Part shown: piece by piece, positions 38,030 to 47,788 of the stretch
Numbering within the stretch: position 1 is the first letter of the stretch
Layout: each line of letters begins with the position of its first letter
Origin: Geminicoccus roseus DSM 18922
GTDB lineage: Bacteria; Pseudomonadota; Alphaproteobacteria; Geminicoccales; Geminicoccaceae
Length of the DNA stretch: 64,000 nt
Assembly (NCBI RefSeq): GCF_000427665.1
Contig: NZ_KE386572.1
Location: forward strand, 2,566,196 to 2,630,195
Reading direction: 5' to 3'
Notes under the pieces: generated by a model
What the model saw: the letters and a program-made list of their open reading frames with translations, nothing else
What the model was told of the DNA's origin: nothing
Database searches by the model: none
Made by a program: the position numbers and the translations under genes

Positions 38030-39170
38030 GTGGATCTGCCTTCCGATCTGTCCGCCTCGCACGATGTCCCGGATGGGGATCCAGCGTGGCGGCTCTTCGA
38101 AGGGGCTAACGCGGCGCCGGCGATCCGAGATGCAGCGCCTGCGAAAATTCTCGCCTCGTTCCAGCCGGCCGAAGTAAAGGGCGGGATCCGCTTTGCGCTA
38201 TCCCCGGAAACATCCATCGATGTGATGGGTCCGGCGTCTCGGCAAGCCGTCGCGGCGCTACGGCCTGATGCGGCTCATGAAAGCGGGGATCTGGTCGCCG
38301 ACGGGCCGGCAGGCGCTCCTGATCCCTGTCCAGGCGGCGCGGCCGGCCGAGCTCGGCCAGTGCCGGTTCCCGTCCCACTGCTCAGCTGACCTGGGCGCAG
38401 GCCGGACGAGCGGCAGCTACAGCTGAAAGACAACGGCCGCGGCGATGGCCTCGTTTCCGCCATGTCAGGGGCGGCCAAGTCGGCCGACATCACCACCGCG
38501 CCTGGAGCAAGGGGTGGCCCTGGCACTGCTTCCCCAGGCTTGGTGGGATCAATCGTTCATTGGTCCAACTGGCAGCAGCGGGACGGCGATGCGCCAGGGC
38601 GTCGGCCAGCAAGAAGAGGGATGGCGTGCCAACGGTCGGGAATGCTGCAACCGAGCGCCGGCGGTTCGGCCGCAGCCCGAGCGGCTGCCCGTGCTGGACC
38701 AGGCCGCCCCGGGCGCCTGGACAGGGCGCTCGAACAACTTCCTGCAGCGCCATGCTTTCTGATCGGCTCAGCCTGGTCATCGACATTGGGAGAGCCTGCC
38801 GGATGGGCTGCAGGACATGAGGGGGCGCGCGGATTGTACCGCAGCTGCCCCATCCTTGGCCGGGCCGGCCCAAGGACCGACAGCCCGCACGCGATCAGCG
38901 AAGCCCGGCGCGCGATCGAGGGCGACTACCCCACCCGCCAAGGGCTCCGGACCCGATCCCGGTGGAGACGGATGATCCGCTCCCTGCGGATCGAGGCGGG
39001 ATGTGCCTCCAGGCTGTGGCCCGGACGTGACCATGTGCAACCGCTGCCATGGCCTCTGCGGCCTCCTGGCCGCGGCTCCTCTGGGGAGCGTGGATGATGG
39101 ACAGGCCCGGAGGAATGGCAGCTGCTGTTTCGGCAGGCTGCCGGCAGCGGTCCGGTGCCGGGCAACGCTC
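38030..39170. other. Gene-poor region upstream of the IS5-like remnant
   Basis: Roughly 1.1 kb with no frame showing family motifs or steady G/C third-position bias on either strand. The open frames seen are short, Arg/Pro/Ala-rich and change frame often. The first 60 bases presumably hold the ferritin-like gene promoter; the rest may be eroded mobile DNA or a dead gene. Confidence 0.6.
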
Positions 39171-46206: not shown

Positions 46207-46359
46207 GCTGCGCGGCAACCTTGGAAAGGCAACGGGCCGGACCGTAAGCGGCCGCTGGCCCGGCGGCCGCGAGGCTGGCTCTCAATCAACCGATGCGGCG
46301 GCGGATCCGCCAGCCGATGGCCTGGGCTGCCCATGGCGGCAGCGACTCGTCAGGGGCCG
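46207..46359. other. Spacer after the epimerase gene
   Basis: GC-rich, no gene; contains several interrupted GGCC/GCCGCC palindromes. It leads into the tandem repeat. Confidence 0.4.
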
Positions 46360-46640
46360 TCCCTCGACACGCGGTGCCAGACCCGCCCAGCCGCCTCTCC
46401 AGGCGCTTCGGTCCAATCCGCGCTGGCTGCCGCAGCCGCAGGCACGCCTTCGCGCGATGCTTCCGGGCGATGCCAGGCTGGGGTGCCTTGGCTGGACCAG
46501 CCCAAGCCACGCGACGTCCCCCGACACGCGGTGCCAGACCCGCCCAGCCGCCTCTCTGGGCGCTTCGGTCCGATCCGTGCTGGCTGCTGCAACGGCAGGC
46601 ACAATTTCGCGCGGTGCTTCTGGGGGCGAGGGCAGGCTAG
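46360..46640. repeat. 157-bp tandem direct repeat (two copies)
   Basis: Copy 1 starts at 46360 (TCCCTCGACACGCGGTGCCA) and copy 2 at 46517 (TCCCCCGACACGCGGTGCCA), an exact 157-bp period. The first 80 bases differ at only a few positions, later parts more. Copy 2 stops resembling copy 1 at about 46640, exactly where the IS630-type element begins. Related sequence (GGACCAGCCCGAGCCAAGC at 47848, compare GGACCAGCCCAAGCCACGC at 46494) reappears beyond the element. Confidence 0.85.
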
Positions 46641-46812
46641 AGCATCTTCCGATCAGGCTGCATCATTGTCGCAGCCGGCGGCGGTAGAATAGTTGCCGCA
46701 TTCCTGCGGGCCGAAGGCGCTGGCGGCGGTGCCGATGGCGGTCCACAGGCCAGTGATGCTGCGCTCGGCGGCCTTGCGCAGGAGGGCCTTGAGCTTGGCA
46801 AAGGCGTTCTCG

Positions 46813-46875
46813 CCTCCCGGTCCTGCTGGACCGGGCCCTTTCAGGGTACGGACGATCCGGCTCCTGCCGGATCAC
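46813..46875. repeat. Multi-hairpin insertion A in the IS630 transposase
   Basis: About 60 bp. The order on + is: stem CCCGGTCC-tgct-GGACCGGG (46816-46835), mini-stem CCCT-ttc-AGGG (46836-46846), 7-nt spacer TACGGAC, and stem GATCCGGC-tcct-GCCGGATC (46854-46873). It interrupts transposase codons between 'DFDP' and 'NAFAKLK'. Confidence 0.8.
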
Positions 46876-46980
46876 GGATCAAAGTCAGGACCATAGGGCG
46901 GCAGGTAAAGCAGTCTGGCGCCGGCATCTTCGATCGCCTTGCGCATGCCGGGTACTTTGTGGCTGCCAAGGTTGTCCAGG

Positions 46981-47041
46981 AAAGGCCAGCAGGCCTTTCA
47001 TCCGACTCCTGCAGGGAGCGCGGTCAGGAGACCGCGAAGGG
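46981..47041. repeat. Multi-hairpin insertion B in the IS630 transposase
   Basis: 61 bp. The order on + is: stem AAAGGCC-agca-GGCCTTT (46981-46998), 7-nt spacer CATCCGA, mini-stem CTCC/GGAG (47006-47018), and stem CGCGGTC-agga-GACCGCG (47019-47036). Removing 61 bp restores the transposase reading from 'GDTVI' to 'LDNLGSHK'. Confidence 0.8.
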
Positions 47042-47788
47042 ATGACCGTATCGCCAGGCCGCAGCTCAGGCACCAGCACCTGGTCGATATAGGCCTGGAA
47101 GGTAATGCCGTTCATCGGCCCACCGAGAACCATTGGAGCTACCATGCCGGTCCAACGCAGGCCGGCTAGGAAAGTCGTGGTCTTCCAGTGTCCGTGTGGG
47201 AGGGCACCGCGAAGACGTTCGCCCATGCGGCTACGGCCGCGCGGTCGAGCCATCTTGGTGGAGGTCCCGTCAATCGCCGCTGGCGCTCGACCATCACTGA
47301 AGACCAGTGGTTCCGGCTCGAGAGCTGGCCCTCGAACCATGCCCGGCGCCGCTTCAGGGCATCGGGCCGGTCCTGCCCGGCCGCCTGCGCCGACTTTTTT
47401 CTGAGCGTGAGTTCGTGCCGGTCCAAGAACCGTCACAGCGTCGCAATGCCAGCGGAAATGCCGGAAGTCGCCATGGCGGTTCTGAGCTCGCCGAGCGTGA
47501 TGTCGGGCGTGCGGTCCACCAGTTGCAGGATCAGCGCTGCATGCGCCTCGATCCGCGACGAGCGTCGGTCGCCGCCCGATGCCCCGGGCAGGATCGGACC
47601 CGTCGCGCGCAGCCTTGCGTACCAGCGGATGGCGCTCGACAAGCTGACCTCGGAGCGTGCCGCGGCCGACCGGCACGACGCGCCTGCCGACACGGCCCGC
47701 ACCACCCGCTCGCGAAGATCGACCGACAGCGCCTTGGACATCCCTCTGCCAGCCTCCCTACCGGCCAGCAGCTTGAATCACATCCTTA

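Follow-up and report, generated by a model that had tools for sequence, protein, structure and literature searches.

The window, which is the whole stretch of 64,000 nucleotides of Geminicoccus roseus DSM 18922 that was analysed, contains a decayed transposase gene interrupted by two short multi-hairpin inserts. The inserts share loops and layout but differ in their stems, which raises the question of what they are and how two of them came to lie in one dead gene.

Two inserts of one plan in a decayed gene

The initial annotation described two multi-hairpin insertions of about 60 bp. Both are real and 62 nt each, with the four perfect 7–8 bp tetraloop hairpins that it had located, and a mini-stem and a 7-nt spacer (GTCCGTA and ATCCGAC) are present in both. 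The features of the locus, and two weaker matches elsewhere in the window, are as follows.

46664–47741, minus strand: decayed IS630-family transposase gene carrying both inserts (Pfam DDE_3, E 2.8e-7)
46813–46874, minus strand: element copy 1, 62-nt core (covariance model R1 81.1 bits, R2 73.8 bits); minus-strand letters TGATCCGGC-AGGA-GCCGGATC GTCCGTA CCCT-GAA-AGGG CCCGGTCC-AGCA-GGACCGGG AGG
46816–46835, minus strand: stem B hairpin of copy 1, 8 bp; plus-strand letters CCCGGTCC-TGCT-GGACCGGG, the loop TGCT on plus being AGCA on minus
46836–46846, minus strand: mini-hairpin of copy 1, from sequence and fold; CCCT-TTC-AGGG on plus, CCCT-GAA-AGGG on minus
46847–46853, minus strand: conserved 7-nt spacer of copy 1, GTCCGTA on minus; family consensus ATCCGNN
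46854–46873, minus strand: stem A hairpin of copy 1, 8 bp; plus-strand letters GATCCGGC-TCCT-GCCGGATC, the loop TCCT on plus being AGGA on minus
46876–46877, minus strand: retained left target CC of copy 1 (GG on plus), set by the empty sites L005, L006, L011 and L054; 46875 is the base between this CC and the core, and 46812 the G/C at the far side
46979–47040, plus strand: element copy 2, 62-nt core (R2 67.5 bits, R1 77.8 bits); plus-strand letters G GAAAGGCC-AGCA-GGCCTTTC ATCCGAC TCCTGCAGGGA G CGCGGTC-AGGA-GACCGCG AAGG
46976–46978, plus strand: left target CCA of copy 2; the right flanking G is 47041
46980–46999, plus strand: stem A hairpin of copy 2, 8 bp, GAAAGGCC-AGCA-GGCCTTTC
47000–47006, plus strand: spacer of copy 2, ATCCGAC
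47007–47017, plus strand: mini-hairpin of copy 2, TCCTGCAGGGA, from sequence and fold
47019–47036, plus strand: stem B hairpin of copy 2, 7 bp, CGCGGTC-AGGA-GACCGCG
39053–39103, minus strand: degenerate, partly deleted family member (R1 25.5 bits; R2 29.8 bits, E 0.009 genome-wide)
38935–38992, minus strand: probable very degenerate member (23.5 bits with R1 only; under threshold with R2)

Folded as single-stranded DNA, each insert has a predicted energy of −21 to −23 kcal/mol (z −5.9 for copy 1 and −5.2 for copy 2). Four such hairpins with these loops in 250 nt were reached in none of 200 first-order Markov shuffles of the window, where the maximum was one. The differing order of mini-stem and spacer that had been attributed to the two copies does not hold: read on one strand, both follow the plan stem A–AGSA–stem A′–7-nt spacer–mini-stem–stem B–AGSA–stem B′–AGG. 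Insert 1 is a minus-strand copy and insert 2 a plus-strand one, hence the apparent swap of order and loops; AGCA and AGGA are variants of a single AGSA loop.

Both inserts lie in the same dead transposase, as had been proposed. The decayed IS630 gene, which has an N-terminal ORF at 47433–47741, was aligned by tblastn to insert-free IS630 of the same genome; copy 1 is located at the codons around N-P-I-E and copy 2 just ahead of the D in M/L-D-N-L. The gene carries other damage in addition to the inserts. The target of copy 2 has matching empty IS630 sites (TTGTCCA-T) in L008 and L011.

Just downstream of the IS630 relic, at 46357–46640, there is a GC-rich repeat of about 120 nt in two direct copies (...CGACACGCGGTGCCAGACCCGCCCAGCCGCCTCT...). 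The segment 38935–39103, with the two degenerate elements, matched none of the transposase queries used.

The family and the pairing of its stems

The general plan of the family is CCA, stem A (8–9 bp)–AGSA–stem A′, ATCCGNN, a mini-hairpin of the type CCCT-GMA-AGGG, stem B (7–8 bp)–AGSA–stem B′ and NAGG, followed by G/C. The loops A-G-S-A, the spacer T-C-C-G and the terminal AGG are nearly invariant. Other copies were already visible in a DNA search with the region. The covariance-model search proposed in the initial annotation was run with model R1, built from seven copies, and model R2, built from 124 matches; it found 25 copies in the own genome at E ≤ 0.01 (150 of about 14,000 first-look candidates being scored) and more than 80 others in relatives, all of them Geminicoccaceae. 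The congeneric genome G001, which is 100% complete, has 32 copies, genome G013 has 27, and seven other Geminicoccaceae have fewer. In a class-wide sample of 289 genomes, matches were present in the own genome only, and every confirmed member from a pattern scan of the genomes of 84,980 species lay in Geminicoccaceae or in MAG contigs that are likely Geminicoccaceae. Pattern matches in Rhizobium, Ralstonia, Kandeliimicrobium and a halophilic archaeon had weak or no model score and were rejected as non-members; two matches in viral contigs, at best 25.6 bits with the model, were read as chance. Plasmid records contained no match to a 3-kb carrier segment or to a single element, Rfam had nothing near gathering score for the element, and no matching element was found in the open-access literature that was searched. 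The family is previously undescribed and is limited to one bacterial family, the Geminicoccaceae. The many further copies, together with empty IS630 relatives that give exact insertion ends, bear out the suggestion of a small non-autonomous hairpin family.

Across these copies the stems are free in sequence yet paired, in agreement with the covariation under a kept layout that had been proposed from two copies. Standard pairs occupy 96.2% of pair cells in 108 distinct copies; each of the 20 base pairs varies while staying paired, changes on both sides are found in 19 of the 20, and double-change cells number 582. Any of the five covariation measures was reached by none of 500 shuffles, and sliding the partners abolishes the signal (score 0.716, as against 0.202 shuffled and at most 0.083 slid).

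An RNA-level element (a retroelement copy, a ribozyme, or a translational-bypass or read-through element), with stems that covary for RNA folding, would be consistent with this strong covariation, as well as with one IS630 site (site 1) at which the net gain of 60 nt keeps the frame. RNA folding, however, would favour G-U pairs. The unpaired departures include 28 G-T and 25 A-C; since G-T is no commoner, the pairing appears to matter in DNA, and, as copies are also found in either orientation relative to the gene, the structure acts as DNA. An in-frame TGA stop is present at site 1, the usual net gain is 61 nt, RVT_1 was not found in genomes G000, G001 and G013, and there is no Rfam match at gathering score. 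An RNA-level origin is therefore largely refuted and very unlikely. The earlier proposal of copying as single-stranded DNA or RNA loses its RNA half through the equality of G-T and A-C mispairs and the lack of RVT_1 in the main carriers; single-stranded DNA is the probable substrate.

Once inserted, copies appear to lose their pairing neutrally. Of 55 double changes between copies at the same site, 47 are of transversion type, which is not predicted by slow drift through G-U and would fit replacement by other master copies or hairpin-templated rewriting. Template switching in hairpins (quasipalindrome correction) would explain both these pair flips and the perfect arms, and may be a source of stem change within the family. 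As the origin of the inserts, with no common mobile ancestry, it is refuted and retains next to no probability, as it cannot yield, at 56 sites, one 62-nt length together with conservation of the loops, the spacer, the mini-hairpin and the ends.

Insertion sites and host genes

The element ends were set with the help of unfilled homologous sites, either from the genome carrying the copy or from related ones. The comparison with intact IS630 copies that had also been proposed initially was carried out; empty relatives fix the exact ends, and target duplication is absent in every filled/empty pair compared. The rule fitting the sites is CC-x-S to CC-[63 nt]-S, where x is 1–3 nt and the net gain is 60, 61 or 62 nt, most sites having +61 or +62. 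Across 56 distinct sites, nothing is conserved beyond CCA and the G/C that follows.

In genome G021, two IS630 copies that are 87% alike, L158 and L162, are each filled where the other is empty: L158 has AACCC[A..AGG]CGAG against AACCC-GAT-CGAG in L162, and L162 has GGTCC[A..AGG]GCC against GGTCC-AG-GCC in L158 (these sites were also sampled as loci L061 and L054). L012 and L011 form a further filled and empty pair at one site. An IS481 copy of the own genome (L019) reads GTCC[A..AGG]GGGTG, as against GTCC-AC-GGGTG in G001; the G001 counterpart (L082) has another, decayed element nearby, so the inserts are independent and at different places in the two species. In the IS630 protein tree, the copies filled at site 1 (L004; L001 with L002/L003; L158) are scattered among the empty copies L156, L160, L163 and L162, and the same codons have therefore been hit at least three times. 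The codons are intact in the empty copies.

As regards the two findings that the initial annotation had named as contrary, many other copies exist and no intact IS630 carries the element. The nearest to an intact carrier is L158, which is open through the insert, but the ends of its gene are out of frame relative to its sister L162. In this IS630 copy (L158:1333–2457) the element is read through in frame as 20 extra residues, and both gene ends are out of frame with respect to L162.

The stems of same-site copies in Geminicoccus are 91% alike and the flanks 64%, stems at different sites averaging 58%. Stems shared far better than flanks would fit immobile inserts, already present in the ancestral IS copies and retained through selection or gene conversion as the dead transposases change. 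Against this, the IS630 tree intermingles empty and filled copies, codons being intact at the empty sites; the L158/L162 and L019/L082 contrasts also speak against it, the element is found in many unrelated IS families, and the bases adjoining it are not co-converted; immobility is highly improbable. The site-specific stems are not predicted by a freely retargeting element. In the genus of G013, stem site-fidelity is weaker, and a single stem A (TCAAAGGCC) recurs across many sites. Stems acting as guides to the target were rejected as an explanation of site fidelity: arms resembled flanks no more than in permuted data, and when 46 sites were scanned in fixed register for identical or complementary bases, no consistent signal rose above the permuted range.

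At least 20 of the 25 own-genome copies are located inside transposase DNA of unrelated IS families, and nearly all tested flanks in relatives also match transposases. The host Pfam families include DDE_3 (IS630), rve (IS3, IS481), DEDD_Tnp_IS110/Transposase_20, DDE_Tnp_1, Transposase_mut (IS256), TnpB_IS66, DDE_Tnp_IS66, DUF772 and IstB_IS21. Twenty spread 20-kb stretches of the genome (400 kb), used as a control, contained one IS-like cluster, a count that may be low for IS DNA given the 20 transposase queries used, and no element copy standing up genome-wide (one match reached 22 bits). The excess in transposase genes is overwhelming even if IS DNA makes up 3% of the genome. Survival bias in neutral DNA must add to it and leaves the paucity of intergenic insertions unaccounted for. 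Relative to the transposase gene, the element is on the opposite strand in 42 copies and on the same strand in 13 (81 copies, loci L001–L103); this bias arises in part because TGG is commoner than CCA in coding strands.

One clearly non-transposase site, L065 (G021:C3:9589–9650), is upstream of a DinB-family gene; its element has an atypical GCA context and a GC closing pair in stem A. In IS630, IS3, IS481 and IS5 copies (e.g. L001, L081:938, L069:2803 and L018), many inserts are at, or a few codons from, catalytic D/E codons of the DDE transposases.

The concentration in transposase DNA, set against a single IS-like cluster in 400 kb, the repeated inserts at or near catalytic codons (M/L-DN and NPIE of IS630, SDNG of IS3) and the presence of two or more inserts in single genes could be explained by a host system that disables mobile elements by deliberately placing hairpins in their transposase genes. 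No machinery or guide for such a system was found, however; the sites share only CCA|S, some inserts are away from catalytic residues, and dead IS genes tolerate inserts anyway. Deliberate disabling of transposases is possible, but a dedicated host system is an unlikely source of the inserts. The near-restriction to unrelated transposase families and the recurrent sites point to a parasite of parasites or to IS silencing.

Probable movement and known elements

The inserts are probably copies of a non-autonomous mobile DNA element of about 63 nt, moved by an enzyme that is encoded elsewhere and recognises it in the form of folded single-stranded DNA. One strand folds into three hairpins, A, mini and B, and this folded strand would be the substrate; the enzyme would read the loops and the spacer, sense that the stems are double-stranded, and join the element ends to a CC/S target, where the 1–3 nt between CC and G/C are replaced. 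Because only pairing would matter to the enzyme, the stems of active copies would be free to drift, through compensatory or hairpin-templated change, and inserted copies would decay as neutral DNA. Conservation of structure rather than sequence is known for few bacterial mobile elements, and here the DNA-level covariation is directly readable from many natural copies and before/after sites.

Four kinds of candidate mover were looked for. HUH-Y1 transposases had no match in G001 and G013, and G000 has one Y1 gene, a RAYT-like match; RVT_1 was missing as described; IS91-type Y2 (PF04986) was found only in G011 among 14 genomes; no integron integrase match exceeded the TIGR02249 cut-off in the same 14. 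All four were rejected as movers, being absent or below cut-off in the main carriers (for Y1, G001 and G013). The left-end pattern recovered the known copies and a few chance-like matches whose arms do not pair, but no larger, autonomous element sharing that left end. As no tested class of hairpin recombinase explains all main carriers, the enzyme is probably outside the classes tested.

The ends of IS200/IS605 elements have a hairpin near each end on the same strand, and insertion takes place beside a fixed short motif with no duplication. The present element likewise inserts at a fixed CC(A) with no duplication; it loses 1–3 target nucleotides, however, and leaves no space beyond its left hairpin for guide bases. 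REP/REPIN sequences are also short, palindromic, non-autonomous dispersed repeats with many copies, for which recognition of single-strand hairpins is a REP/RAYT feature. A REP/REPIN or IS200/IS605 derivative, moved by an HUH tyrosine (Y1) transposase that recognises single-stranded hairpins, would share the architecture, the hairpins on one strand and insertion 3′ of a short fixed motif. Some RAYTs read the hairpin loop and need a perfect stem, most of the stem sequence being free and of little weight (PMC8266576); this shows that such recognition is possible and may serve as a model of how the element works, rather than as evidence of membership. The Y1 gene, including RAYT, is missing in the high-copy carriers G001 and G013, and the tags are missing too: there is no GTAG (or GGAG) at the hairpin foot and no CGTC, the ends being CCA on the left and AGG on the right at the 56 distinct sites. 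Unlike REP/REPIN, the element consists of two hairpins plus a mini-hairpin in a fixed 62-nt unit that replaces target bases inside transposase genes. It may work like REP or double-hairpin elements, yet fails the defining REP tests run, and a derivative moved by a Y1 transposase is improbable.

Other known systems differ as well. CGTC-tagged repeats and Rickettsia RPE-type repeats are palindromic, some lie inside genes, and they have no dedicated transposase known (PMC3733652), whereas the element has no CGTC tag, its stem sequence is free and its hosts are transposase genes. Fungal mitochondrial double-hairpin elements and sponge repetitive hairpin elements are likewise very small and multi-hairpin, with signs of mobility and no known enzyme, and filled and empty versions of one site (L158/L162, L019/L082, L012/L011) are a further likeness to mobile double-hairpin elements. 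These elements are organellar, however, and this family is bacterial; the sponge elements keep their stems and vary in their loops (PMC2800124), opposite to the conserved loops and free stems seen here. Classical MITEs of DDE transposases are distinguished by target-site duplication and terminal inverted repeats, in place of which the element has the ends CCA and AGG. Derivatives of retroelements or group II introns are at odds with the RVT_1 result, attC-like integron sites with the integrase result and IS91/ISCR rolling-circle elements with the Y2 result. For a translational bypass element, both orientations, a net +61 or +62 at most sites and decayed host genes do not fit.

A more far-reaching, and rather doubtful, proposal is a homing cloverleaf of about 63 nt: a new kind of mobile DNA whose folded single strand would be moved by an enzyme beyond the known single-strand recombinase classes, read by its shape and not by its stem sequence, and aimed at transposase genes. 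If this were true, the element would, in effect or by design, inactivate other mobile elements.

Remnants at L017 (about 2300–2545), L007 and L025 consist of the stem A 5′ arm, the loop CAGCAG and the stem B 3′ arm, as if deleted between the two identical loops. At L156 (G000:C3), intact-looking IS481 and IS630 are neighbours on a 61-kb contig that has no elements, and are probably recent arrivals.
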